In this document: one piece after another, positions 10,335-31,684 of the stretch | Layout: every line of letters begins with the position of its first letter | Numbering within the stretch: the stretch's first letter is position 1 | IMG/VR virus record: IMGVR_UViG_3300047550_005720 | Location: 1 to 32,845 of that record | Length of the DNA: 32,845 bases | Origin: a virus | Strand: one strand, 5' to 3' | Program-made: the position numbers and the translations under genes | Notes under the pieces: model-generated | Database searches by the model: none | Told to the model about the DNA's origin: nothing | Seen by the model: the letters and a program-made list of their open reading frames with translations, nothing else

Positions 10335-10563
10335 ATTTCTGTGCTCCAATAATTGTTACGTTACTCTCTGTTTCAATCCATACTCGTGCACCACACGAAA
10401 GAGGTTTATCAGGACTATACACTACTTTTGATGGGCCGTCAATGATTACTTCATGACCATACGTGTTCTTTGATCCTTGTTTGACCGTCAATACAGGATC
10501 TTTCTTTCCGTGTTTATTATTTGATTTAATCACATGCTGATTAACATGAACAATAGTTTTCAT
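10273..10563 (-). CDS. Conserved phage hypothetical protein (MKTIVHVNQH family)
   Basis: Using the ATG at 10563, which overlaps the pstS stop as ATGA, the protein is 96 residues. It begins MKTIVHVNQHVIKSN and contains YGHEVIIDGPSKVVYSPDKP followed by LSCGARVWIETE. I recall this beta-rich family from many phages, located next to nucleotide metabolism genes, with no known role. The last 20 codons (KKKTTADGSETNIQTV region) overlap the start of nrdB by 62 nt, so that part is constrained in two frames. Confidence 0.85.
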   Translation of the reverse strand: MKTIVHVNQHVIKSNNKHGKKDPVLTVKQGSKNTYGHEVIIDGPSKVVYSPDKPLSCGARVWIETESNVTIIGAQKYERSKKKTTADGSETNIQTV

Positions 10564-11534
10564 TGCAAGCCCAACTTTTTCCAATCGCTCCTAATCTTGT
10601 CCTTTACTGCGTTTGGTAGTGGCACATAGTCAATATCGCTCGCCATTTTATCACCATTTTTAAATGCCCAGTCAAAGAACTTAACAATATCTTTCGTTTT
10701 TTCATTCTTTTCGTAGATCAAAATGAATGTTGCAGAAGTGATTGGCCAACCACTAGGTTGATTGTTTAAGTTTACTGCCATACCTGGGACATCCCACTTG
10801 GCATTTTTTGCTGCTTCAGCAAACGATTGTGCTGATGGCGTTGCAATCTTTTTGTTTGTCTCAATAGAAATAAAGTTTAGTCCACCTTGCTTAACAAAAG
10901 CATACTCAACATAACCAAGACTATTGTCAACCGTCTTAACAAAGTTTGCTACACCCGCATTGCCCTTACCAGCCAAAAACGTTCCCTTCCATTTTACAGA
11001 TTTACCTTCTCCAATCTGTGTTTTAAATTCTTCACTAACTTTTGTTAGATAATCAGTATAAACTGCTGTAGTGCCAGATGCATCTGATCTCACGACAAGG
11101 CTAATATGTATGTTGGGCAGTTTAGCTTTTGGATTTAGTTTTATAATAGCAGGATCATTCCACTTTATAATTTTACCAACATAAATGTCACCAAGAACCT
11201 TGCCTGTTAAAACAAGATTATCAACACCTTTAATGTTAAAAACAGGAACAACACCGCCAATTACGGCTGGAAATTGATAAACACCCATTTCTTTAAGTTT
11301 TTGCTCATCGACAGGATCATCTGTTGCACCAAAATCAATTGTTTTTGCTTCTGTTTGTTTAATGCCACCGCCACTACCTATTGCTGAATAGTTTATTTTA
11401 ACATTAGTTACTTTTGCATATTCAGCTGCCCATTTTGAATATATTGGTTCGGGAAACGTTGCTCCTGCACCTGTGAATTGTGCGAACACGTTACTACAAA
11501 AAAATGCTAGAAGAAAACCAAATACTTTTTTCAT
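10560..11534 (-). CDS. pstS: Phosphate-binding periplasmic protein PstS
   Basis: The 324-residue product has a Sec signal peptide (MKKVFGFLLAFFCSNVFAQ) and the PstS landmarks in order: FTGAGATFPEPIYSKW, YSAIGSGGGIKQ, FGATDDPVDE, KWNDPAI, RSDASGTTAVYTDYL and NLNNQPSGWPIT. The Ser/Thr/Asp/Arg of these segments bind phosphate in the host family. In bacteria PstS feeds the PstCAB importer; no transporter genes are present here, so it must use the host machinery. Phage-borne pstS is established in marine phages and is thought to raise phosphate uptake during infection. GGAGATTTT precedes the ATG. Length matches the family, so it is probably functional. Confidence 0.96.
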   Translation of the reverse strand: MKKVFGFLLAFFCSNVFAQFTGAGATFPEPIYSKWAAEYAKVTNVKINYSAIGSGGGIKQTEAKTIDFGATDDPVDEQKLKEMGVYQFPAVIGGVVPVFNIKGVDNLVLTGKVLGDIYVGKIIKWNDPAIIKLNPKAKLPNIHISLVVRSDASGTTAVYTDYLTKVSEEFKTQIGEGKSVKWKGTFLAGKGNAGVANFVKTVDNSLGYVEYAFVKQGGLNFISIETNKKIATPSAQSFAEAAKNAKWDVPGMAVNLNNQPSGWPITSATFILIYEKNEKTKDIVKFFDWAFKNGDKMASDIDYVPLPNAVKDKIRSDWKKLGLQ

Positions 11535-14175: not shown

Positions 14176-14853
14176 TTATTGTTGTACGAAATCCATAATC
14201 ATTGGAAACACTGTGCTAATCTGTTCTGCACACTGTCTGGCAATGATTCGATGCTCTTTTTGTGTTTCAACCCCACTCCTAAGTTCAATGTAATGGATCC
14301 ATGACCGGAGCGATCCATTCATGTACATTCTCGATACTGTTAATCCTTCAGGCAAGACGGCACGTGCTTGTTCTTTTGCAATATCATTTTGTATTGCCCA
14401 TTGATATAGATTGTTTATTTGTGCTGTAAGCACCTTTTGACGCAGCAACCACTCGTCCGCTACCGCAAGATGATGATCTCCATCCATCGGTGTGATCTCA
14501 TGACTGTTTTGACGGTTCGTAGGGTCCTGTAAACGCGCTGTACGCGTAGTGAACGATAGATCCTTTGTGGGGTCAGCATACCGCTGTGAAAACTCCTGAA
14601 AACTAAAACTACGGTGTCTTAGGATCTGTCTTGCAATGTCTCTTGTTGTAGTTATCTCGAGGCAAACACTTGCCATCTCAAAAGGAGACCAATGCTTGTG
14701 CTTGATAAGATATTTGATCAATCGTTCGTTTGTTTCTGTGTTGTGCTGGTTTGAGGGATTGGAAACGCGAGCACAATAACACACTAGATCTTGTAATGTT
14801 GATCCCGATGCGTTGACAGAATTTGAATAACTAATTAATTTTACACTCAACAT
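14176..14853 (-). CDS. thyX: Flavin-dependent thymidylate synthase ThyX
   Basis: This 225-residue enzyme makes dTMP from dUMP with methylene-THF, FAD and NADPH. The diagnostic ThyX motif RHR-x(2)-S-x(5)-S-x-RY appears as RHRSFSFQEFSQRY at about residues 79-92. A downstream YIELRSGVETQKEHR segment holds further FAD/dUMP contacts. The ATG at 14853 is chosen because GTGGAGAAA precedes it; a GTG three codons upstream would remove that site. Its start overlaps the primase stop by 7 nt. Together with NrdA and NrdB it supplies dTTP for phage replication. Confidence 0.97.
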   Translation of the reverse strand: MLSVKLISYSNSVNASGSTLQDLVCYCARVSNPSNQHNTETNERLIKYLIKHKHWSPFEMASVCLEITTTRDIARQILRHRSFSFQEFSQRYADPTKDLSFTTRTARLQDPTNRQNSHEITPMDGDHHLAVADEWLLRQKVLTAQINNLYQWAIQNDIAKEQARAVLPEGLTVSRMYMNGSLRSWIHYIELRSGVETQKEHRIIARQCAEQISTVFPMIMDFVQQ

Positions 14854-15875
14854 TTTCTCCACATTGAAAATTGCAGTTTTGCTTCAAGACCACTAAACAC
14901 GTTATTGTCAATAATCAGCTTAATATCAACTGGTTTCATCCCAGCCATCACCATATCATTAACATCTTTATACTGTATATGGCTGGGCCAAATTAACACT
15001 CTGTAACCCAACTCAATCATCTTTTCTATTCGTCCACAGATCTCTTTATTCCTTGGTTCATTATCATAACAAAAGATAACATTCTCTTTGTTTATGTTAA
15101 TGGCAGCAAGAGCACGGAGACAATCAGAGCCTGCCATTGCTAACGAATTTGGAATAAACATCGAATCGATAGGACCTTCGAAAATGTATGTAGTCTTTTC
15201 AATATTCGTATGATCAAGACCATACACCTTTGGCTTCGATTCGTCAACGATGATCGTTATATATCTCACCCCAGACTTCGAGAAATTTCTTCCCTGTAGT
15301 CCCACAAAGTTACCGTAACTATCTAACAAAGGGATTACAAGTCTTGGTTCATCTGGTTGATCTAAGTTGAATTTTTCAGGAATGAACGTGTTAACCCAGT
15401 GCTTAAACTTTGGTGCATAGAAAAGCTTATGATGGAACGTTGTAGGTATCTTACGTTTGTCAATATACTTTTTGACAGGATGATCTGGACGAAGTTGTGA
15501 AACCTTCTTAAGATCTTTGAGAGGACTGTATTTAACGAATACGGGTTTAGCAGTTGATGTTATATCTGGAACCTTCTCCACGAGCTTAACCTGTGGAGGT
15601 TGGTTCTTGTCAATAAACTTCTCGGTTTTATACTGAGAGGCTAAGTCAGGATTGCAAAGCTCAATTAGTTTGAATAACGTTGTTGAAATATTACAGTTGT
15701 GACATTTGAAATAGACGCGACGCTTGGTCTCGAGAATATATCCCCGAGCCTTGCGTTTATCTTTTTTCGAATCACCACAGAAAGGGCACCTGCAATTATA
15801 AACATCGTTCTTTTTCTTAAACCCAGTAAGGTGGTTAGAAATAAGTCCGATATACTTAAAATCAATATGATCCAA
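14847..15875 (-). CDS. DNA primase with zinc finger and TOPRIM domain
   Basis: The 342-residue protein has a zinc-binding head with Cys30/Cys33 (CPFCGDS) and Cys58/Cys61 (CHNC). A linker follows, then a TOPRIM domain with IFEGPIDSMFIP (catalytic Glu) and NVIFCYDNEPRNKE (acidic metal site). This is the layout of DnaG and phage primases such as T4 gp61, which lay RNA primers for the lagging strand. The start is a TTG (DHIDFKYIGL follows), supported by GTGAGG at proper spacing and by the family's habit of starting with this segment. It is the first gene after the promoter at 15906-15934. Confidence 0.94.
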   Translation of the reverse strand: MDHIDFKYIGLISNHLTGFKKKNDVYNCRCPFCGDSKKDKRKARGYILETKRRVYFKCHNCNISTTLFKLIELCNPDLASQYKTEKFIDKNQPPQVKLVEKVPDITSTAKPVFVKYSPLKDLKKVSQLRPDHPVKKYIDKRKIPTTFHHKLFYAPKFKHWVNTFIPEKFNLDQPDEPRLVIPLLDSYGNFVGLQGRNFSKSGVRYITIIVDESKPKVYGLDHTNIEKTTYIFEGPIDSMFIPNSLAMAGSDCLRALAAININKENVIFCYDNEPRNKEICGRIEKMIELGYRVLIWPSHIQYKDVNDMVMAGMKPVDIKLIIDNNVFSGLEAKLQFSMWRKC

Positions 15876-21145: not shown

Positions 21146-21625
21146 TTATTCCAATCTTTCTGCTCTTGATTTAATATCCTCAACTTCTTTATCAGTGAAG
21201 AGAGCTACTTCTTCATTGCGAAGTTTTTTGAGGATGGCACCAGCAACGCGCTTACGCGCTTCTTCTGAACCATATCTTTTAGCAGCTTTAGCGGCAATTT
21301 TACTAAACATCTTGCCTGGCTTACCGATGTCTTTACCAGCACGAGCAGCTTTTGCTGAGTATGAAGCCTCATCAACCTGTTCAACTTCTTCTTTCATTGC
21401 AGCTTTAATCGCTGAACGACGGTTCTTAAGATAAGAATCTGACTTATCGACTTTACCATCGTTGTTGACGTCAGCGTCTTCTTTACCGACAGGATCAAGT
21501 TTTTTCTTTTTTGCTTCGATCAGCTCAGCTTCGACTTTTGTAAGAGCAACTACACCAGCACTCATTGATTGCTGGGCTGCCTTAATTACGCTCTCTGGCA
21601 GGTTAAAATTTTTATTTGAGTGCAT
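21146..21625 (-). CDS. EF-hand/dockerin-like, lysine-rich virion-type protein
   Basis: This 159-residue protein contains a 12-residue calcium loop at about 52-63 (DVNNDGKVDKSD), with Asp, Asn and Asp at coordinating positions 1, 3 and 5 and Asp at 9 and 12. That loop is followed by YLKNRRSA. A basic helical block comes later (KAARAGKDIGKPGKMFSKIA, KRYGSEEARKRVAGAILKKL). I recall both blocks together in T4-like phage head-region proteins. Calcium binding is inferred from the loop only. GGAGAAACC precedes the ATG. Confidence 0.8.
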   Translation of the reverse strand: MHSNKNFNLPESVIKAAQQSMSAGVVALTKVEAELIEAKKKKLDPVGKEDADVNNDGKVDKSDSYLKNRRSAIKAAMKEEVEQVDEASYSAKAARAGKDIGKPGKMFSKIAAKAAKRYGSEEARKRVAGAILKKLRNEEVALFTDKEVEDIKSRAERLE

Positions 21626-21633
21626 GGTTTCTC

Positions 21634-22248
21634 CTAATCCTCATCTATGATTTTTATTTTTCTTTGCATTTTAGCAGCACGTGAAATTGGTAGCTTGCTA
21701 TTGTCAATATCTTTATCCATTGTAATGTCGCCAGTTGGATCTTTTGGAAGAGTCTTTTTGGCGTCTTTTACTGGATCAAAACTATTTATTTCTCGTAGGA
21801 CTTTGTCGAGGTACTTGTGCTTTCCTGCAGTACCAATCTTGTCAGCAATCAGATTAATTCTATCAACAATGTCTTTTGCTTGACGTTTTTCATCGTCCGA
21901 TGCACCATTTTGAACCTTGAGCTGCTTGTACATACCAAACAGTTTGTCGTGCAGTACAACCATCTTTTCAGCTTTGTCAAGATCCGCATCACGTGGAAGC
22001 TTGGTAAAGAATTTTTGCGCGTCTGGACTCACCTCAAAATGCTTTGTCTTATAAGTTCCAACAGCAATCTGATCGTTAGGATCAATTTCAATAGGGACTT
22101 TATGCTGTTGTGCCAAAACAGATTTGGGAAGATTAAACTGCTCTCTCATTACCTTACGAACAGAGTGCTCGAGGCACGTGTACTCACCTTTTTCTGTCTT
22201 CTTCGTCATTACATCACGAACAATGCTTTCTAACGATCTGAAGTTCAT
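21634..22248 (-). CDS. Virion-associated hypothetical protein
   Basis: The 204-residue protein begins MNFRSLESIVRDVMTKKTEK, followed by CLEHSVRKVMREQFNLP, a helical middle rich in Lys/Asp (KAEKMVVLHDKLFGMYKQLK) and a basic end (RAAKMQRKIKIIDED). I recall the LESIVRDVM opening and the closing RAAKMQRKIKIID block from large phage genomes, always within the head-gene region. There is no enzyme motif. It overlaps the Dps-like gene by 4 nt. It may be an internal or scaffold-type protein. Confidence 0.78.
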   Translation of the reverse strand: MNFRSLESIVRDVMTKKTEKGEYTCLEHSVRKVMREQFNLPKSVLAQQHKVPIEIDPNDQIAVGTYKTKHFEVSPDAQKFFTKLPRDADLDKAEKMVVLHDKLFGMYKQLKVQNGASDDEKRQAKDIVDRINLIADKIGTAGKHKYLDKVLREINSFDPVKDAKKTLPKDPTGDITMDKDIDNSKLPISRAAKMQRKIKIIDED

Positions 22249-22688
22249 TTTGCTTTTACCAGTATAGATTTTAACATCCAGGCATGCTTTTTATGTGCAT
22301 CATAACGATCTTGAAGGAAGTTGCTCAGGCCAATCTCGTTATATTGCTCAGCAAGTTTATATGCCGCATTTAAAGTGTTTAGAAGTGTGGTGTTATCAAC
22401 AATCAACCGAGCAACCATTGTACTGTGGTCAGGAATTGAAGTCTCATCCTGAATTGCAGATAGCTCTTTAAACCTACCAAACGATCCGGGTGCATAGCTA
22501 CCAAGAGCTCTAATCTCTTCAGCAATCCTGTCCACAGCACCGTAAACTTCCTCGTAAAAATTACCAAAAAATTCGTGATATTGAGGAAAATCTGGTCCCT
22601 CAACGTTCCAATGATAGTTATGTGCTTTAAGATAAAGTGCAAAAGTTTCTGCTAAAACCTTCTTCATTTGTTCAACTAATGTATCCAT
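22245..22688 (-). CDS. Dps-like ferritin
   Basis: This 147-residue protein matches the Dps family in length and layout. HNYHWNVEGPDFPQYHEFF (residues 23-41) supplies the ferroxidase histidines (His26, His38), and AVDRIAEEIRALG (51-63) supplies Asp53 and Glu57. Dps oligomers oxidise and store iron and in some hosts bind DNA. There is no long basic N-terminal tail, so DNA binding is less likely here. It is embedded among virion and packaged-protein genes and coupled to both neighbours, so it may be made late or loaded into heads; that is an inference. Confidence 0.92.
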   Translation of the reverse strand: MDTLVEQMKKVLAETFALYLKAHNYHWNVEGPDFPQYHEFFGNFYEEVYGAVDRIAEEIRALGSYAPGSFGRFKELSAIQDETSIPDHSTMVARLIVDNTTLLNTLNAAYKLAEQYNEIGLSNFLQDRYDAHKKHAWMLKSILVKAK

Positions 22689-22967
22689 CTATGCCTCCAC
22701 CTTTGCACCAGCGCGCCATTGACGGCAGCTCCAGTATCTTGCTTTTGTTCTTGGACCTGGGTTATCACAATTGTGTCGAGCTCTGAAAGCCTTTCTACGT
22801 GCTGGGCTGTCTCTTTTGATTGAAAGATTTGGGTCACCAAACGTAACTTTCTTTTCATTGCCCGACTCAGGATTTTTAACATATACAGCAAACTTTTTAG
22901 GCCCACCGGGTGTCCTAAAAGGCTTGCCGAGCTGTTTCTCTTCTAAAAATTGTGCAAATGTTTTCAT
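22689..22967 (-). CDS. DUF6321-like protein with capsid-targeting-like leader
   Basis: The 92-residue protein begins MKTFAQFLEEK, close to the capsid-targeting sequence of T4 internal proteins (MKTYQEFIAE). The body reads PGGPKKFAVYVKNPESGNEK, VTFGDPNLSIKRDSPARRKA, then RHNCDNPGPRTKARYWSC. That is a widespread phage domain with conserved His/Cys residues that may bind zinc. An AGGA site and a GATAAATAC box lie upstream. I am confident of the family. Packaging into the head is inferred from the leader. Confidence 0.88.
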   Translation of the reverse strand: MKTFAQFLEEKQLGKPFRTPGGPKKFAVYVKNPESGNEKKVTFGDPNLSIKRDSPARRKAFRARHNCDNPGPRTKARYWSCRQWRAGAKVEA

Positions 22968-22985
22968 AAAAATCCTTGTTTTTAT

Positions 22986-22994
22986 GTATTTATC
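22986..22994 (-). promoter_or_regulatory. Possible T4-type late promoter (GATAAATAC)
   Basis: The minus strand reads TAGATAAATAC, where TAG is the stop codon of the FMN-reductase gene, 19 nt before the 22967 ATG. It is identical over 11 nt to the box at 9151-9161, and differs from T4 late TATAAATA by one base. Confidence 0.5.
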
Positions 22995-23668
22995 TAGGTG
23001 TAGGTTTCGCCAGTTTTATCTAGATCGGCCGACTGGACACCGCTAAAATTACTTATTTTTAGCATCTCAGCAAATAAAACTTGGTTGCGGACAAATACTT
23101 TTATTCTTTCGTCAAGCTCGTTGTCTTGTTTAATTTTATTTTTTGACTGATTTTCATCCGAAACAAACGCTTCTGGTGGCAAAGTAAAACCAAGTTGGGA
23201 AACAAAACTACCCATCAAACCTTGTATCTGCTGCCATCCATCATCTGCACCGCTAACGATTGCCCCAAATGTTTTACCATATAACATACTAACGTTTCGT
23301 TTAATGTATTGATCATCAAAATAAGACATTCTTTCAAAAAGTGCTTGCACATAAGATGAATAAACGCCCCACCAAATTGGTGTTGCAACAATTAAACCAT
23401 CGCAGTCTTTTATTTTTTCCAACACGTTTGTCAGATCATCTGCGTTTCCATATTGATCAACAATATCGACACCTGGTTCAAAATGAAGTTCGTTTGCAAC
23501 AACAATCTCACAATCACAATTAAATTCTTCTAGTGCCTGTTGAACCATCAATGCAATAGTGTGTGAATTACTTTTTTCGTAGTCTTTCTTCAACGTAGCG
23601 CAATAAATGAGGAACTTGAGTCTTTGCTCAGGTTCCTCAGCTACAAAATAACCGTTAAACGATTTCAT
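22994..23668 (-). CDS. Flavodoxin-fold NAD(P)H-dependent FMN reductase with capsid-targeting-like leader
   Basis: The 224-residue protein opens MKSFNGYFVAEEPE, resembling the capsid-targeting leader seen in neighbouring genes. It then enters a flavodoxin-like domain with LKFLIYCATLKKDYEKSNSH (FMN phosphate loop), DCDGLIVATPIWWGVYSSYV (flavin-ring contacts) and GAIVSGADDGW. Enzymes of this fold reduce FMN, quinones or azo/nitro compounds. It overlaps the gene upstream by ATGA. If packaged, it would arrive in the host with the DNA. The specific acceptor is unknown. Confidence 0.88.
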   Translation of the reverse strand: MKSFNGYFVAEEPEQRLKFLIYCATLKKDYEKSNSHTIALMVQQALEEFNCDCEIVVANELHFEPGVDIVDQYGNADDLTNVLEKIKDCDGLIVATPIWWGVYSSYVQALFERMSYFDDQYIKRNVSMLYGKTFGAIVSGADDGWQQIQGLMGSFVSQLGFTLPPEAFVSDENQSKNKIKQDNELDERIKVFVRNQVLFAEMLKISNFSGVQSADLDKTGETYT

Positions 23669-24801
23669 TTGCTCTTGTGCATATTAATAAACCAGTGAGC
23701 AAGCTGTTTTTGTCTCTTGCTTGACGTATCTGAAGAGCGAATCTTTTTTAGCTCAGAAAAAGACTTTCCCAACAGTCCGTGTCGTTTCATGTCACCTTTG
23801 TCTTGTGGATTCTTGCCATCTAAAAAATTTTCATTAACTTGTTGCTCTTCGCTGACTGATCTCCAACCACCGCCTTTTGACTTGTACCACTTTGCAGCCC
23901 ATCCATTCGCGTATGCAGAAGGATATACATCAAACTTGGAACGCGCCAAAGCTTTTGCTCTTGACCACAATTCTGGATTTGTTGGCTTACTTTTTTCTGT
24001 GACTAACTCAACCTCTTCTTTTGTGAGTTTCCCTTTCCCATAGTTTGAAACATTTATTGGGGCACCTTTTCTTTCTGGGTTGGGATCATGTTTTCTTTTT
24101 GCTGCAACAGCAGCTGCTCTTTCTTTCTTTGATAAACTAGCAATCTTTTCATTTGACATACATTTAGGTTTAGGTTCACCTGGCTCACGAGCACAAGGTC
24201 CTGCAACTTCACCTTTGCTGTTGATTCTTTTCCATCCACCTTCTGGGTGAGAAGGATTGAACCAGTTTCTCAAATCTTCGTTGAGTTGTATTGTACGGTA
24301 AATGTTTTCTAGCAACGAATGATCAAATTCATACTCAGTCTCAGCTGAGATAGGACGAATATTGTACGTTGATGTGCGCTTGCCAGCAAGAAGACGGGCT
24401 GTTTCTGCGCGCTTAACTGATGGAGCAAGCCTGTTAGCAAGCTTGAGTATTGCTTGCTGTTTTGGACCAATCATTCTATCGATAACAATTTTATCCGAAG
24501 GAGACAGTTGTTGGTACGAAGCACCCATCTTGCCAGCAACACGTCGTCTCATAAAACTACGAGCAAGACTTTGCGAACGCTTCTTAATCTTTTTTTTACT
24601 TGCAACTCTTTTCAGGGCAAGCTCTCTTGCACGTTTAATTTTTGGTAAGCGACGGCGCATATTGATAGCACGCTTGCGTCTTTCTTGATAAGTGACAACA
24701 TGAGCTTCTTTAACATCACTTATTGGCTTTTCCGGGTCAACCTCAACCGTCTCACCTTCTTGGTTAATAACAATCTTCTTTTTCTTTTTTACAATATCCA
24801 T
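23665..24801 (-). CDS. Basic head-region protein fused to DUF5872-like repeats
   Basis: This 378-residue protein has a very basic N-terminal half (RRKRAINMRRRLPKIKRARE, LKRVASKKKIKKRSQSLARS, KQQAILKLANRLAPSVKRAE). I recall this half from T4-like phage virion genes. Two DUF5872-like blocks follow: HPEGGWKRINSKGEVAGPCA with CMSNEKIASL, and NPELWSRAKALARSKFDVYP with WAAKWYKSKGGGWR. Such blocks are common in phages and giant viruses, with no known function. The basic half suggests DNA binding within the head, which is an inference. AGGAATTAAA precedes the ATG. Confidence 0.86.
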   Translation of the reverse strand: MDIVKKKKKIVINQEGETVEVDPEKPISDVKEAHVVTYQERRKRAINMRRRLPKIKRARELALKRVASKKKIKKRSQSLARSFMRRRVAGKMGASYQQLSPSDKIVIDRMIGPKQQAILKLANRLAPSVKRAETARLLAGKRTSTYNIRPISAETEYEFDHSLLENIYRTIQLNEDLRNWFNPSHPEGGWKRINSKGEVAGPCAREPGEPKPKCMSNEKIASLSKKERAAAVAAKRKHDPNPERKGAPINVSNYGKGKLTKEEVELVTEKSKPTNPELWSRAKALARSKFDVYPSAYANGWAAKWYKSKGGGWRSVSEEQQVNENFLDGKNPQDKGDMKRHGLLGKSFSELKKIRSSDTSSKRQKQLAHWFINMHKSK

Positions 24802-24809
24802 TTTAATTC

Positions 24810-26120
24810 CTATTGAACGATTTCTTCCCAGTCGATAGAACCCAAAGCATCGTTGCCGTTCGATGCGCCCGTTGCAACAAGACTAAAAATTGTTGCAGTG
24901 TTGGTGAAGCTATCACGCTCAAGCTGGAATTTAAATAATCCGTCTTGAAAATCAACAACACTAGCACCGCTGCCAGCACCAACGTTAATATATCCAACTT
25001 TAGCATCGTCACCACCTGTATAACCAGTTGCTGAAATATCATACTCAACAGATGACGTTGCACTAGTACTTGTCCAAACAGCGTTTGCATCCAGCGTTGG
25101 ATTTACAACAATTTTGTATCTATATTGTGTATTATTTGTAACGCCAGCAAAGGCTACGTTATTTGGTATAACAATTGCATCAAGGCGAGTGGATTTTAAT
25201 CGTATACTGATTATTGGTACAAATGTTCCAGCTATTGGAATATCTTTCGGTGTTGTGATAGGTATACCTACAGCTCTTTGTTTTCCTGATAACTCATATC
25301 CACCTTCAGTAATAACAGTAGAGCAAATTTGTTTCATTGTGGAGTTTGATGATGTTGTGCCTGTATTTTCAATTTCATATCTGCAAGGAAGACAAGCAGT
25401 TGTCATGTACGTTGTCGAGTTAACGTTATCGTTATGAAACGTGTGAGCAACACGAGGTATTCCGTTAACGACAAATCCACAGCGAACGTCACCCACACCC
25501 AGCCATTCAACATCAGTCCAGAATATGTTTGATTTTGTTACATCAAGGCCACCTCGGTGTTCTTGCGTTGTAGACTGACTAGATAATCCGGTACCATCGA
25601 ACGTGTCTCCATTCCAACTACTCTGCGGGACGCGTGTTTCAACCACAGCACCAGTCACATAGCTTCGAAGAACCATATAATTGGTTGTTCCATCATTTTC
25701 AAAAAATACACCATTTTGACTACTAAAATAACCAACACGTTGTCTCAAGTTTGCTTTGGGTTGATTCATGACAAAAGTATTCATTATAAGAAGTGATTTG
25801 CCTGGTTGATAGGCAAATACTCTTTTTGTTTCTCTGTATACATAATGTCCTGAAGTGGTGTCAACATTGAGGTCAACAACCGACTCGTTGGCTTGGTGAA
25901 CTGTATTGCAGCTAGCAGTATTAGCAGTATTCCACTTACCGTTGTCTTGATAGCGATGTTGAGAATCAAATAAAGTTAAGCTATCAGATATGCGAATTCT
26001 GCCAAAAGCATCTGTTAACGTACCAGAAGGTGTCAACCTGTCTGATAGCATTCCAACTTCATAACGTGTTACAAGACTTGGGCCATCTAATTTTTTCGTG
26101 TCTGTTCTATACTGAGCCAT
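24810..26120 (-). CDS. Virion structural protein
   Basis: The 436-residue protein begins MAQYRTDTKKLDGPSLVTRY and has TDAFGRIRISDSLTLFDSQH, YDDGKW-type and YVTGAVVETRVPQSSWNGDT segments. It is beta-rich and Ser/Thr/Asn-rich, with no enzyme motif. I recognise the FGRIRIS-x(4)-LFDSQ block from structural proteins of T4-like and marine phages. The terminal third looks like a separate beta-sandwich. It may be a capsid, head-vertex or tail-shaft component. The start overlaps the upstream stop (TAATG). Confidence 0.9.
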   Translation of the reverse strand: MAQYRTDTKKLDGPSLVTRYEVGMLSDRLTPSGTLTDAFGRIRISDSLTLFDSQHRYQDNGKWNTANTASCNTVHQANESVVDLNVDTTSGHYVYRETKRVFAYQPGKSLLIMNTFVMNQPKANLRQRVGYFSSQNGVFFENDGTTNYMVLRSYVTGAVVETRVPQSSWNGDTFDGTGLSSQSTTQEHRGGLDVTKSNIFWTDVEWLGVGDVRCGFVVNGIPRVAHTFHNDNVNSTTYMTTACLPCRYEIENTGTTSSNSTMKQICSTVITEGGYELSGKQRAVGIPITTPKDIPIAGTFVPIISIRLKSTRLDAIVIPNNVAFAGVTNNTQYRYKIVVNPTLDANAVWTSTSATSSVEYDISATGYTGGDDAKVGYINVGAGSGASVVDFQDGLFKFQLERDSFTNTATIFSLVATGASNGNDALGSIDWEEIVQ

Positions 26121-26320
26121 TAGTCACACTCTCTTTTTAACTTTTTCAGTTTAATAACAGGTTTAAGCTCATCTTCTTCCTCTTCCACTACAGAAGGATG
26201 ATATGCAAACGCACCCTGCATTTTCATGCCAAGCTCTTTTGCAGTGGGTGCGATAACAGGTTTGTAGCTCTCATCAAGCGCACCCGCTTTTGTAAAATAT
26301 TGCTTAAATGTCTTTACCAT
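26120..26320 (-). CDS. Short protein with capsid-targeting-like leader
   Basis: This 66-residue protein begins MVKTFKQYFTKAGALDES, a diverged form of the leader in adjacent genes in which the usual Glu before the presumed cleavage point is Lys. The rest is short, with an acidic run (VEEEEDELKP) and a basic C-terminus (IKLKKLKREC). It overlaps the HAD gene by 17 nt and has only a weak ribosome binding site. It could be a small internal protein of the T4 IP type. The function is unknown. Confidence 0.72.
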   Translation of the reverse strand: MVKTFKQYFTKAGALDESYKPVIAPTAKELGMKMQGAFAYHPSVVEEEEDELKPVIKLKKLKRECD

Positions 26321-26924
26321 TGTAGGGCTTCATTGATCCGTTAGGTTGAACATGATGCGCGTAAAACTTGACAGTAGGATGCTTCTCGCGAAGCTTAAGA
26401 AAATGATCTAGATTACCTGTATCATCGTCATACATATGGACTTCTTTTGGTCTGTGCTTGTTTATGTATCCACTGGTAATTCTTGCTTTCTTTTGAGGAC
26501 CACTTTCTTTGGTTCTAATATTACCTGCACGGACAATATGAACCTTATCCATATTAACACCGTGCTGTTTAAATGCACCAACAAACCGTTTTTTATCGTC
26601 GAGATTTTCACGAGCGGTGTTGAATATTACCTTGTTGCCTTTTGAAGCAGACGTTAGGCGGACGTGACTGATCATTGATTTGATTGGTTTTGATTCTTTG
26701 GAAAACTTTTCTGCTGATCTAAACTCACCAAAGTCATATGAATGACCTTTGGGTAATGATGTACGTGAACTTTTTGCATACTCATGAGTGTCTAATGTTT
26801 TTACAACTTCACCTTTTTCATTCTTCACTTTGATTTTTGCAGTAGGATGTACTAGCGTATCATCAATATCGTAGACATGAAGAGCGCGTGCCTCCTCACT
26901 GATAAAATCGGAAAAGCGTTTCAT
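26304..26924 (-). CDS. HAD phosphatase with capsid-targeting-like leader
   Basis: The 206-residue protein starts MKRFSDFISEEARA, then at once enters motif I of a HAD hydrolase, HVYDIDDTLVHP, with nucleophile Asp19 and Asp21. Later come VIFNTARENLDDK (motif II Thr), a KKARITSG segment with possible motif III Lys, and VHMYDDDTGNLDHF (motif IV acidic pair). The full set suggests activity. Phage relatives include 3'-phosphatase domains of end-healing kinases, but no kinase half is present. It is followed and preceded by genes with the same leader, in one ATGA-coupled chain. Confidence 0.88.
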   Translation of the reverse strand: MKRFSDFISEEARALHVYDIDDTLVHPTAKIKVKNEKGEVVKTLDTHEYAKSSRTSLPKGHSYDFGEFRSAEKFSKESKPIKSMISHVRLTSASKGNKVIFNTARENLDDKKRFVGAFKQHGVNMDKVHIVRAGNIRTKESGPQKKARITSGYINKHRPKEVHMYDDDTGNLDHFLKLREKHPTVKFYAHHVQPNGSMKPYNGKDI

Positions 26925-27535
26925 TTACCAAGACCCTTTCTAACATCATTAAACAATTCACGTGAGTGTTGTTCACTACTTTGGATGTGAGAGGGCAGGT
27001 GTTTTTTGAAACTTTCATAGTCATTGTTTTCAGCATGCTTGCGCATGTCTGTACCAGAAATTCCAGCTTTGCGTTCTCCGGTTTTTAAAACACTAACTGA
27101 TTTGAATCTATGTTCCGTATCTTTTCCCTCAGGACCGTGATACTCTTTAATCCGTTGATACTCACCAGCTCTATCTGAACCACCTGCAATTGTAATGTGT
27201 TGGTATCCCATCTTGTGAAGTTTTTTCACCTGATGAAATATTGAAGGGTGTTCGGCATCAGCGACTGATACAGTCGCTTTTGGAAAAGCCCGTTTTAAAT
27301 GCTTTTCCTTTTGTTCTGGTGTCAGTGGATCTTTGTTTGGACCTGTTTTTGTTTTAGCACCAGTTGACCGCGATGCTACAACGTGTGCGTCAGCACCAAT
27401 TTTTTTAGCGTGACTGACAACGGCATTAACATTTTCTTCGTGGCCAGAAGTTGGAGGGTTCATTCTTCCAAAAAGAAGGACAGCATGTTTTTCTTTTTGT
27501 ACTGCTTCTTTAATAAATGATAAGAATCTTTTCAT
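26921..27535 (-). CDS. Cytidylyltransferase-like nucleotidyltransferase with capsid-targeting-like leader
   Basis: This 204-residue protein begins MKRFLSFIKEAVQKEK and continues HAVLLFGRMNPPTSGHEENV. The PPTSGH segment at residues 27-32 corresponds to the T/HxGH nucleotide-binding motif of the cytidylyltransferase/NMN adenylyltransferase superfamily. HITIAGGSDRAGEY and GISGTDMRKHAENN supply the second half of the site. Relatives attach NMP to small phosphates, for example in NAD or CoA pathways. Similar proteins occur in many T4-like phages without a known substrate. The leader suggests packaging in the head. Confidence 0.88.
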   Translation of the reverse strand: MKRFLSFIKEAVQKEKHAVLLFGRMNPPTSGHEENVNAVVSHAKKIGADAHVVASRSTGAKTKTGPNKDPLTPEQKEKHLKRAFPKATVSVADAEHPSIFHQVKKLHKMGYQHITIAGGSDRAGEYQRIKEYHGPEGKDTEHRFKSVSVLKTGERKAGISGTDMRKHAENNDYESFKKHLPSHIQSSEQHSRELFNDVRKGLGK

Positions 27536-28647
27536 TATGCGAACCTTGGATTGTTTCTGATAGCGTGAGAAATTTCTTGTGGAACAAGTTTAGCAACAGG
27601 ACGTTTTACACCAATCTTATCTTTCTTGAGAAGTACAATACCCTCACCAGCTGATGGCTTCTTATCAATACTGGTTGTCATATCTGGATGATGGATATCT
27701 TTTAGCAGATGCTCTGTTGCCTGGCCCAGGTGATGTCTGATGTCAACTGTTCTTTGAAAATGTTCTTTATTGGCATCTACTTGTGATTGCATAGTCTTGT
27801 AAGCAGCAATCTTTTTTTGCTGCCCGGTTGGCGTTTTTAATTTCTTTGCTTCTTTAACACCCGTTTCTGCGAGATGCTTTTTGTACCCCTCGACGGTTGG
27901 TTCTTTACCTTCTTTAACAGATTTGCCAATATAAGCAGTGAAGTGTTTTACGTGCTCAGGAGTTAGATGTTCTGTTGAATGCTTGCCAAACAATGTTTCA
28001 GCCTCTGATACGTGCTTCTCAACAGCTTTCTGGTCTTCAGGTTTGTAGGTATTTGGTGTTGGCTTGTATTCGGATTGAGGAATAAACACATCTTTGTGTT
28101 TTTGAATTGCTTCTGATGTAATGGCATGAGCTGCACCACCAGTTATCTCTGTATGAGCGGCAATACCAATTTTAGCATTGTGTTTTGCACCATACGTAAT
28201 ACGATTTGGTGTGACTGATTGTTTGTTTTTTTCATGTTCGGTAAACATTAGGTCACCCTGAACAGTGTGACCTGGTTTTACAAACTTATGTGCATGCTCG
28301 AGCACGTTATTTAATTGAGCAGCGTATTGTGGATGGTGGCCAAAATGTTGCTCAACTTCTTCTGGTGTTCTTGCAACCTTACCGGCATCAAAACGATGCT
28401 TATCGGAAACAAATGTTCCTTCGTTGTCGTGACCGACAACAACAGAAGCACCACCATCTACTTTTAACTGGCCGGTGACAGCATTGCTTTTTCCAAGTTT
28501 ATGTTGGTGGAAACCTTTGATCAGGTCAAGAGCTTCCTTTGCCTTCGAAGGATCCTCGTGTGGGATATCTTTAAGGTGCGAGAGGTGCCCTAATTTTTCT
28601 GACTCAAGAGAAGATGCTTCTGCAAGGAAAGTGAGGAATTTAATCAT
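27535..28647 (-). CDS. Ligase-type nucleotidyltransferase (DUF6267-like) with capsid-targeting-like leader
   Basis: The 370-residue protein opens MIKFLTFLAEASSLES. At residues 62-65, in GQLKVDGGASVVVGHDNE, it shows the K-x-D-G motif used by DNA/RNA ligases and capping enzymes to bind AMP or GMP through Lys62. Matching elements are QGDLMFT at about 130-136 (motif III-like) and GEGIVLLKKDK...VAKLV near the C-terminus (motifs IV/V-like). I relate it to the phage DUF6267 family. It is His-rich and basic. Ligation, nucleotidylation or a structural role cannot be separated from sequence alone. Confidence 0.8.
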   Translation of the reverse strand: MIKFLTFLAEASSLESEKLGHLSHLKDIPHEDPSKAKEALDLIKGFHQHKLGKSNAVTGQLKVDGGASVVVGHDNEGTFVSDKHRFDAGKVARTPEEVEQHFGHHPQYAAQLNNVLEHAHKFVKPGHTVQGDLMFTEHEKNKQSVTPNRITYGAKHNAKIGIAAHTEITGGAAHAITSEAIQKHKDVFIPQSEYKPTPNTYKPEDQKAVEKHVSEAETLFGKHSTEHLTPEHVKHFTAYIGKSVKEGKEPTVEGYKKHLAETGVKEAKKLKTPTGQQKKIAAYKTMQSQVDANKEHFQRTVDIRHHLGQATEHLLKDIHHPDMTTSIDKKPSAGEGIVLLKKDKIGVKRPVAKLVPQEISHAIRNNPRFA

Positions 28648-29323
28648 TTGGTTTAATCGTCTGTGTATCCAGATTTTTTGAAGACTTGGCTACATCACCT
28701 TTTAGCGACATAACCATCAACGCACCGTATTTTTTCTTTCCTGTTTTTTTATCAGTGCCGCGATACTTCATTCTTGCTCTGAGCTGTGTTTTACCTTCTA
28801 GCTTGTTAGTACCGAGCCTTGCAGAATCACTCTGGAAATGATATAGTCCATGTCCCCCTCCAATTTGAATATAAGGAGTTTTTCTATCGCTGTGGTAATG
28901 GGCCGCAATGGGTGAAGTATCTTTATGTTCATGATAAACGTTACCCATCTTCAAATCGGTATCATAGTCACCTGAAGGTTTGTGCCACTGTTTGTTAACT
29001 TTGTGCAAAAACTCTTTGACAGCAGGATGGCTGGCTGTAGCAGGGTATCTTTTTGCTGCTTTGGGACTAACGTGCCAGCCTTTCTCATCGCTATGGTGGA
29101 GTTCAAGCTGACCAAACATAGCTCCCTTATCTTTTTTAACTTCCAGATTGTGCTGTTTACCCTTTATATTCATATGGGCGTCTGGAGCATCGCCGGAACT
29201 ACCAGCAGTCTTTGCTTCTTTATGCATCACACCGCTTTTTTTTAGTTTATCAGCTATCTCATTTTCATAATTAAATCCACCAGCAGCGTGTTTTTCGGTG
29301 ATAAAAGATAAAAAACGAATCAT
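28640..29323 (-). CDS. PD-(D/E)XK-like putative nuclease with capsid-targeting-like leader
   Basis: This 227-residue protein begins MIRFLSFITEKHAAGG and carries FNYENEIADKLKKSG. Next come SSGDAPDAHM (Asp45/Asp48) and HNLEVKKDKG (Glu61, Lys63). The D-x(12)-E-x-K spacing in a strand-like setting is the signature of the PD-(D/E)XK nuclease fold. A basic, His-rich C-terminal half with LRARMKYRGTDKKTGKKK could contact DNA. It is the first gene after the terminator and TATAAATAC box at 29.36 kb. The nuclease call is inference from motif spacing; the rest of the fold is not confirmed. Confidence 0.75.
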   Translation of the reverse strand: MIRFLSFITEKHAAGGFNYENEIADKLKKSGVMHKEAKTAGSSGDAPDAHMNIKGKQHNLEVKKDKGAMFGQLELHHSDEKGWHVSPKAAKRYPATASHPAVKEFLHKVNKQWHKPSGDYDTDLKMGNVYHEHKDTSPIAAHYHSDRKTPYIQIGGGHGLYHFQSDSARLGTNKLEGKTQLRARMKYRGTDKKTGKKKYGALMVMSLKGDVAKSSKNLDTQTIKPND

Positions 29324-29353: not shown

Positions 29354-29362
29354 GTATTTATA
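29354..29362 (-). promoter_or_regulatory. T4-type late promoter (TATAAATAC)
   Basis: Minus-strand TATAAATAC, an exact match to the T4 late -10 element, lies 31 nt upstream of the ATG of the first gene of the packaged-protein cluster. It sits within the T-tract tail of the terminator that ends the previous transcript. Confidence 0.6.
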
Positions 29363-30154: not shown

Positions 30155-30180
30155 AAAAAAGGCCCCGAAGGGCCTTTTTT
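30155..30180 (-). terminator. Rho-independent terminator with UUCG tetraloop
   Basis: Minus-strand GGCCC-TTCG-GGGCC with flanking A6/T6 arms forms an 11-bp hairpin closed by a UUCG loop, followed by T's. The 5' A arm overlaps the TAA stop codon of the DUF2828 gene, so the coding frame ends inside the terminator. Confidence 0.92.
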
Positions 30181-31597
30181 ACAACGCGTAGCGGTCAACC
30201 ATGATTGTTTTCAACATGATACCCTCTGGCGTGAAGTTTTCTTCATCGCCGGAAAGAACACTTTGTACAATCGAAGGAGAGAACCCTGAAACCAGGGCAG
30301 CACCACGTTGGTCGTACTTAACAGGCACGTTATCGTGACTATTAATGTTCCAGAAAACAATCCGAGGGATTGCGTATCCAGCTTTCTCATACTGATGCTG
30401 CACAGACTCAAACGCACTATGATCAAAACGAGCACACTGGTCAAACTGCATGTCCGAAAGGATCAACAGCGTCTGAGGCATTTCTTCCTGGGGCACATTG
30501 TTATCTTTAGCCACTTTAAGGATCTTCGTAAACGCGGCAATAATATTGGTGTTCATCCCCCATTTAGATTGCATCATTTGCTTAATCTTCTGGTTAATAT
30601 TACCCCGAAGATGGAGAAGCTCAGGTGATTCAGAAAACGTCAGGAACGTGTCAGCAAACTTACCTTTGTTCTTATCGGCGAGATAAAGACCCAGCGACAC
30701 AGCAACATCAAGCGCAGTAAGTGTGTTTGCACCACCAATCCGACTTGTCATTGAACCGGAAACATCAACCATAGGAAGAACATTTGCATCCCCGACATAG
30801 TTAGGAAGTGCTTCCCACTGCTTTTGAATCAAATCAAGTTCAGTTTTTGACCAGCTGCGCAAGTATACACCAATACGGCCTTTCAGCACATCATAAGGAA
30901 ACACAGCACCAGCGTTAACCTTGACTTTAGGATCCTCACCTTTAACCAGGCTCGACACATAATCAGTATACACATCCTTCGCGTTACGGAAGAACGCAGT
31001 CTTGTAACGAGCGTGGGCGAGAGAAGGCACGTGGCTGAAGTTAATATCAGTCCATTGTTTTGCGCACATCTTTTGCTCAACGACGTTCGTCAAAGACACA
31101 AGCGTCTTACGATACTGCTTAGGTGTAAACCCAAGATAACTACGAAGCTTGGCTGCAACATCCCCTTTACGAGGCATCCATTTAGCACAAAGACCGTTGC
31201 CTTCATTGAGAGCCTGTTTGATTAGTTCAAACGCTTCCGCTTCAAGCTCAGTACCAACGAGAACCAGAAGGTCGTCCCAACGACCAATCTCAGGAACCTT
31301 ACGAACCAGAGCACGGCACGCATCAGTATCGTTCTTTGCCAGGTCCGCAAAGATTTGGCGGAACAGTTCGCGTTCACCTGCTCCACCACGAACGTCACGT
31401 GCCCACTGTGCAATGCGCAGTGCTAGATCACGGTTTTCGACATACGCGCCGGTAAACAGTGGCGCAATTTTCTGACCGCGCGACGCGCCGATCTTAAAGA
31501 AAAGATCAACACACGCACTAGCCGTGCTTTTGCGTGCCTTCATACCGTTCGTGGTACGTGCTTCTTGGTTCTTTACAGCATTAACAAATGTAGTCAT
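30179..31597 (-). CDS. DUF2828/TROVE-like (Ro60-type) protein with vWA domain
   Basis: The 472-residue protein starts at the ATG preceded by GGAG 8 nt upstream; a GTG two codons earlier is too close to that site. The N-terminal two-thirds are helical repeats with RDVRGGAGERELFRQIF, RWDDLLVL and KWMPRKGDVAAKLR, as in TROVE/HEAT-ring proteins that bind structured RNA. The last third is a von Willebrand A domain with MIDAS residues DVSGSM (278-283), a downstream Thr (NTNIIAAF) and SDMQFD. I assign it to DUF2828, a Ro60-like family. Ro60 binds Y RNAs and misfolded RNAs. Its base composition looks more GC-rich than its neighbours, hinting at transfer. Function in the phage is unknown. Confidence 0.85.
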   Translation of the reverse strand: MTTFVNAVKNQEARTTNGMKARKSTASACVDLFFKIGASRGQKIAPLFTGAYVENRDLALRIAQWARDVRGGAGERELFRQIFADLAKNDTDACRALVRKVPEIGRWDDLLVLVGTELEAEAFELIKQALNEGNGLCAKWMPRKGDVAAKLRSYLGFTPKQYRKTLVSLTNVVEQKMCAKQWTDINFSHVPSLAHARYKTAFFRNAKDVYTDYVSSLVKGEDPKVKVNAGAVFPYDVLKGRIGVYLRSWSKTELDLIQKQWEALPNYVGDANVLPMVDVSGSMTSRIGGANTLTALDVAVSLGLYLADKNKGKFADTFLTFSESPELLHLRGNINQKIKQMMQSKWGMNTNIIAAFTKILKVAKDNNVPQEEMPQTLLILSDMQFDQCARFDHSAFESVQHQYEKAGYAIPRIVFWNINSHDNVPVKYDQRGAALVSGFSPSIVQSVLSGDEENFTPEGIMLKTIMVDRYAL

Positions 31598-31684
31598 TTT
31601 CACATCTCCAATAACAGGTTAAATGGTTTTCAGATTTTCAGTCTGTTTTGTTTGTTTGCGGAACTTAACCTAACATAAAGTAAC

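Follow-up and report, generated by a model that had tools for sequence, protein, structure and literature searches.

The first ten residues of the phage T4 internal protein IPIII, MKTYQEFIAE, are sufficient for head entry; targeting depends on residues 4 and 7, and processing on 8 and 10 (PMC9026906). A T4 review that also mentions cyanophages notes that such a capsid targeting sequence (CTS) may allow T4-like phages to package various proteins. Enzymes have been reported from the virions of T4-like cyanophages, namely nicotinamide mononucleotide adenylyltransferase (NMNAT)/cytidylyltransferase, kinases and S-adenosylmethionine (SAM) hydrolase (PMC10665884, PMC9602691, PMC9146016, PMC3037559); NMNAT-like transferases and kinases were found there repeatedly and left unexplained, and contamination could not be excluded. 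We analysed a complete 32,845-base IMG/VR fragment (IMGVR_UViG_3300047550_005720, hereafter the window) from a marine T4-like phage, in which seven genes for different proteins begin with related leaders of about ten residues. These leaders are very probably CTS of the T4 internal-protein type, directing the packaging of exchangeable cargo.

Seven related leaders on unrelated proteins

All seven leader genes listed in the original prediction were confirmed, on the minus strand between 22689 and 29323, and their bodies are mutually unrelated as claimed (Table 1). The leader has the form M-x-x-F-x-x-[FY]-[ILVF]-x-E. Its strict version, M..[FY]..[FY][ILVF].E, starts 5 of the 55 plausible genes considered in the window, for 0.009 expected from shuffled N-termini (Poisson P about 5e-13) and 0.012 expected at internal positions of the same proteins; a wider version is found in 7 of the 55, compared with 0.06-0.07 expected. 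Chance likeness of short N-termini, which has the shortness of the motif and nothing else in its favour, is already refuted by these figures and by the conservation of the leader across orthologues, and its probability is negligible. The positions conserved in the window, 4, 7, 8 and 10, are precisely the functional positions of IPIII.

Five of the 7 leaders, the number predicted, have an (I/L/V)-x-E site whose Glu is residue 10, and the other two carry shifted sites. The FMN reductase has F4 and Y7 followed by V-A-E at 9-11, with its Glu at 11, and the 66-residue peptide has a leader offset by one residue, with L-D-E at 15-17. There is thus a candidate cleavage site in 7/7 leaders, and the ends of these sites (10, 11 and 17) fall within the range of T4 propeptides, which are 10-19 residues long. 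Of 8 long relatives, 5 have an S77-family prohead protease gene, of the gp21 type that the original prediction proposed to look for, and one is annotated in Melnitz. The N-termini of the proteases in relatives (YITE/A, FLTE/G, HITE/A) and the capsid protein sites (FLSE/A in Melnitz, LLTE/A in S-CREM2, MLQE/A in G002), all predicted sites positioned by T4 analogy, have nearly the sequence of the leader end. By this analogy, the leader ends in much the same way as the sites at which prohead protease and major capsid protein are probably cut.

Run on the whole T4 genome, the DNA leader pattern matched only ipII, ipIII and gene 61.1, and a backward control pattern gave zero matches in five phages. 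Gene 61.1 (NC_000866 18966-19130, L333; 54 residues, MKTFKEFIKED...) is flanked by 61 and 41, as the marine island described below also is, and is a candidate for an overlooked T4 internal protein.

The octamer TATAAATA, which we take to be the T4 late promoter consensus, lies 32 nucleotides upstream of the first leader gene and is the sole copy on both strands of the window. It was also present within 80 bases upstream of 12 of 115 leader genes sampled from IMG/VR, the background in random stretches being 1.2% (P 1.6e-8). The IMG/VR scan for ATGAAANNNTTYNNNNNNTTYHTNNNNGAA and a spacing-control scan, with at least 120 stretches matched, give samples and not frequencies, and placement at gene starts was therefore compared instead. 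Among the matches listed, 81 of 124 were at gene starts with the leader scan, versus 22 of 120 with the spacing control, several of the latter also having F4 and F7. In 80 sampled leaders the unfixed positions were T4-like (S/T at 3, Q/E at 6, A/S at 11), and information fell after residue 11.

Leader proteins in the virions of relatives

All 219 genes of S-CREM2 were translated and compared with the published mass spectrometry (MS) list (Table 3, PMC10665884). The canonical leader proteins, SAM lyase gp6 (PF23780), kinase gp14, gp136 and cytidylyltransferase gp154, were detected in the virion in 4 of 4 cases, against 48 of 215 other proteins (p = 0.003; p = 0.00035 when T4-type structural proteins were excluded). 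The size-matched chance of detecting all four was 0.005. Allowing Leu at position 4 adds gp13, detected, and gp175 (55 residues), undetected, and with a looser pattern permitting any gap lengths specificity was lost (4/7 in virion, p = 0.06). The S-CREM2 virion protein gp12 (L006:7707-10313) carries a leader-like LRFASFMAEAA near residue 17, then an LGL-DGHG segment; its 'Cas9' annotation was set aside, as no Pfam match was obtained.

In S-SCSM1, 7 of the 9 proteins ORF89-97 are labelled virion proteins, including an NMNAT with the leader MKSFLQFLKE. This island lies between mazG/gp41 and gp61-nrdA-nrdB, and the window cluster is likewise beside its own gp61-nrdA-nrdB; the order island-gp61-nrdA-nrdB is common to the window, S-SCSM1, S-CRM01 and S-CREM2. 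Orthologues of the window nucleotidyltransferase are present in the virions of S-CREM2, S-SCSM1, S-SZBM1 (MRFRQFIIEA, in that phage's virion list) and S-SM1 (PMC3037559). A protein kinase is reported from S-CRM01 virions, as cited in PMC10665884, and is probably the product of the kinase gene starting MISFDQFLSE.

Several observations weigh against packaging by way of a CTS. Lys follows the Glu in 2 of the 5 strict leaders and is not common there in sampled leaders, no S77 prohead protease gene was detectable in the window, and cleavage is shown by no N-terminal peptide. Leader proteins ORF191 and ORF192 of S-SZBM1 are absent from its short list of 30 virion proteins. S-SCSM1 ORF89, 90 and 92, of the same island, are in virions despite having no leader, so that the leader is not the sole route in. 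Finally, the proteome authors concede that CsCl carry-over is possible. This last point would suit an explanation in which the likeness of the N-termini reflects a signal for translation or for a chaperone, or a shared interaction in the infected cell that has nothing to do with the head, virion detection being contamination by abundant proteins. However, detection tracks the leader more than size, and the leaderless DUF6267 relatives S-CREM2 gp87 and S-SZBM1 ORF141 are absent from the respective virion lists; the match in sequence and cleavage site to the T4 CTS and to gp21/capsid sites, and the late promoter, also argue against such a signal, which we regard as very improbable.

We conclude that the original interpretation is supported in part. 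For head loading, sequence, comparative data and published proteomes give good support to leader identity and targeting, while similarity of sites suggests cleavage by the prohead protease. Absence of the products from virions had been named as evidence to the contrary; homologues were in fact found there by published MS. Packaging of tagged proteins is supported by the proteomes of relatives, and is probable in the window phage.

The same islands encode leaderless virion proteins or fused proteins that share another N-terminal motif, EAYxxVY (L365 ORF89; L428, L430, L431), perhaps a second type of signal.

Probable cargo proteins and their exchange

Most body labels held, namely PD-(D/E)XK, nucleotidyltransferase (phrog_3041, 1.7e-41), HAD and FMN reductase (PF03358, 2.6e-15; solved relative 5mji, 2.2e-9). 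The protein described as of KxDG ligase type belongs to DUF6267 (PF19782, 3.9e-31). The 92-residue protein had to be relabelled: in place of a DUF6321-like protein, it matches phrog_7595 (3.2e-12) and weakly DUF5754, and its body recurs as the C-terminal domain in Melnitz gp18 and in several leader polyproteins.

In 16 DUF6267 proteins, 8 of which (the window's included) were picked independently of the leader, K62xDG, E335GxV and KxV, motifs I, IV and V of the ligase/nucleotidyltransferase superfamily, are invariant, and so are M1, F4 and E10. Loss of the leader in homologues had been put forward as a possible refutation; the orthologues keep it (MKTFLTFISEA, MYTFNGFITEA, MLSFQTFLTEA) at 23-52% body identity. 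The DUF6267 model has a mean predicted local distance difference test score (pLDDT) of 87, with residues 1-12 below 50, as would be expected of a detachable tag, and Foldseek returned weak fold matches, the top ones mostly DNA/RNA ligases (best E 0.06).

Single-protein IMG/VR searches gave no close relatives of the DUF6267 protein or of the FMN reductase, and relatives for leader conservation were located via the structural protein of the cluster and the HAD and PD-(D/E)XK proteins. The PD...(D/E)xK signature A-P-D48...E61-x-K63 is invariant in 6 homologues of the PD-(D/E)XK-like protein, which has a relative in P-SSM2 and whose model (pLDDT 52) was too low for fold search; its relatives L370-L372, L375 and L376 keep the leader (for example MKSFSNFVTEA, MLTFTHFITEL). 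The HAD protein (phrog_415, 2.8e-6) is similar to the phosphatase portion of polynucleotide kinase from phages, and most stand-alone homologues (35-86% identity) keep the leader, as in MKTFKSFLTEA, MISFKEYLAEK and MIPFKEYIIEK. Solved-structure searches with the HAD and nucleotidyltransferase proteins gave no matches.

One relative, L377, has the same five-gene order as the window with a different first gene, and its orthologue of the 66-residue peptide is MVKTFNEFFKKSQPQTLDE. DNA similarity between the two covers the upstream region and the initial 21 bases of the first gene, then breaks, and resumes in the DUF6267 gene, an exchange of cargo behind a constant leader. The leader would thus be a portable address label for variable enzyme cargo, with bodies swapped between phages.

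The 134 sampled leader proteins fell into 56 body clusters, many bodies being short, basic or low-complexity. Pfam matches include adenylate kinase, RimK ATP-grasp, HicA toxin, Zeta toxin, DnaJ, SET, GNAT, lysozyme and cytidylyltransferase, and ligase-like DUF6267, nucleotidyltransferase and HAD bodies were also seen. The "nucleotide- and nucleic-acid-processing" set originally proposed is therefore too narrow, both for the window (FMN reductase, 66- and 92-residue proteins) and elsewhere (kinases, toxins, chaperones). A second short module, LGLxxDGHGxWYD...AKTxxGxLKF or LGLxYRGFGYW, often stands between the leader and unrelated enzymes, as in L103, L074, the L365 NMNAT, S-CREM2 gp14 and the S-CRM01 kinase. 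One single-leader fusion joins a nucleotidyltransferase to a Zeta toxin-like kinase and has EEFEEFLSE as an internal site (L251:6549-8960); another joins a nucleotidyltransferase to a PD-(D/E)XK domain (L374:4405-6764).

The short and basic bodies, like the leaderless structural and basic proteins of the island, would fit a different use of the same leader, in which tagged proteins are packaged to serve in the particle as prohead-core or DNA-condensing parts and the enzymes go unused in the next host. We find this unlikely, since catalytic motifs are conserved, since a structural role makes no sense for bodies such as SAM lyase, adenylate kinase, HicA, RimK and SET, which also differ between phages, and since injection is established for the internal proteins of T4 (PMC9026906).

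Among the leaderless neighbours in Table 1, the structural protein has cyanophage relatives annotated as virion structural proteins, and S-CREM2 gp160, relative of the Lys/Arg-rich protein, is an MS-detected virion protein. The Dps-like ferritin is kept as an island neighbour in relatives L248, L249, L260 and L317. A DUF2828/DUF7788 protein with a von Willebrand-like domain (30179-31603) adjoins the cluster, and the window also encodes a phage-borne PstS-like phosphate-binding protein and an SPFH/Band 7 protein (10560-11534 and 1903-2853). None of the window proteins matched a defence or counter-defence system in PADLOC.

Table 1. Leader genes of the window, their neighbours and the late promoter octamer (a slash marks the candidate cleavage site)
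Feature	Position	Strand	Leader or match	Leader DNA
Promoter octamer	29355..29362	-		
PD-(D/E)XK-like protein, 227 aa	28640..29323	-	MIRFLSFITE/K	29294-29323
DUF6267 protein, ligase/nucleotidyltransferase-like, 370 aa	27535..28647	-	MIKFLTFLAE/A	28618-28647
Cytidylyltransferase-like nucleotidyltransferase, 204 aa	26921..27535	-	MKRFLSFIKE/A	27506-27535
HAD-type phosphatase, 206 aa	26304..26924	-	MKRFSDFISE/E	26895-26924
66-aa peptide	26120..26320	-	MVKTFKQYFTK, L-D-E/S at 15-17	26270-26320
Virion structural protein within cluster	24810..26120	-	No leader; phrog_1645 'head and packaging' 1.5e-121	
Lys/Arg-rich protein, 378 aa	23665..24801	-	No leader; part matches S-CREM2 gp160, 7.8e-15	
FMN reductase, 224 aa	22994..23668	-	MKSFNGYFVAE/E	23636-23668
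92-aa protein	22689..22967	-	MKTFAQFLEE/K	22938-22967
Dps-like ferritin within cluster	22245..22688	-	No leader; PF00210 4.9e-26	
159-aa protein	21146..21625	-	Relative of S-SCSM1 virion protein ORF92, 2.7e-12	
DNA primase gp61, anchor of conserved gene island	14847..15875	-	40-43% identity to P-SSM2, Melnitz and S-CREM2 primases	

A possible injection system and its relation to known ones

With a T4-type tag on enzymes, and tagged relatives in virions, the phage probably injects, on the T4 precedent, a kit of swappable enzymes with its DNA. For packaging in the window phage, cleavage, injection and the roles of the enzymes in the cell, we infer the following course. The operon would be transcribed late from the T4-type late promoter, and aromatic residues 4 and 7 would attach each product to the prohead core, two steps for which there is sequence support. 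The prohead protease (gp21/S77 family) would then cut after (I/L/V)-x-E, releasing the enzyme within the head, where it would be packed alongside the DNA; on infection it would enter the cell and act ahead of phage gene expression. Such enzymes would most likely serve in counter-defence or in rapidly taking over the metabolism of nucleotides, NAD and RNA/DNA ends; the SAM lyase of S-CREM2 suggests that one of their functions is to protect against restriction.

More broadly, we lean slightly towards the view that protein injection is a general system common to marine and freshwater T4-like phages, with dozens of exchangeable effector families bearing a ten-residue label. If so, it would be comparable to bacterial secreted effectors and could be predicted from sequence alone, with families comprising nucleases, ligases, kinases, SAM lyase, HicA/Zeta toxins, chaperones and methyl-/acetyltransferases. 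That a ten-residue leader predicts virion enzymes is a testable rule, by which injected proteins might be read from any T4-like genome; the leader would point to counter-defence or take-over enzymes acting before the first phage gene expression, and could provide ready tags for loading proteins into phage heads.

In the accessible part of the open-licence literature on 'capsid targeting sequence', no link to marine phage enzymes was found. The T4-like cyanophages whose virion enzymes were cited above share with the window an orthologous nucleotidyltransferase and the same gene island, and the enzymes checked mostly bear the leader; the papers, however, give presence only and leave contamination open, and no mention of a targeting signal was found in them. 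In phage P1, an N-terminal signal of DarB likewise routes large enzymes to the head, from which they are delivered (DarA/DarB, PMC9024508), but it is about 30 residues long and belongs to another phage group with another assembly route. SPN3US also packs and ejects many proteins, the prohead protease cutting N-terminal propeptides, whereas a common ten-residue leader on exchangeable enzymes was not seen in the part of that account available to us (PMC10052503). Closest are T4 IPII and IPIII (Mullaney and Black 1996), with the same ten-residue leader, aromatic 4 and 7, Ile/Leu 8 and Glu 10, a late-type promoter, an S77 protease (here in relatives), and unrelated bodies behind one leader. They differ in that T4 has a few small basic proteins, whereas here recognisable enzymes are tagged, several per genome and in many phages, with the marine leader genes lying in the gp41-gp61 island and elsewhere. 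The T4 internal proteins being already known, what is new here is the extension of the T4 CTS to a large, exchangeable enzyme cargo.

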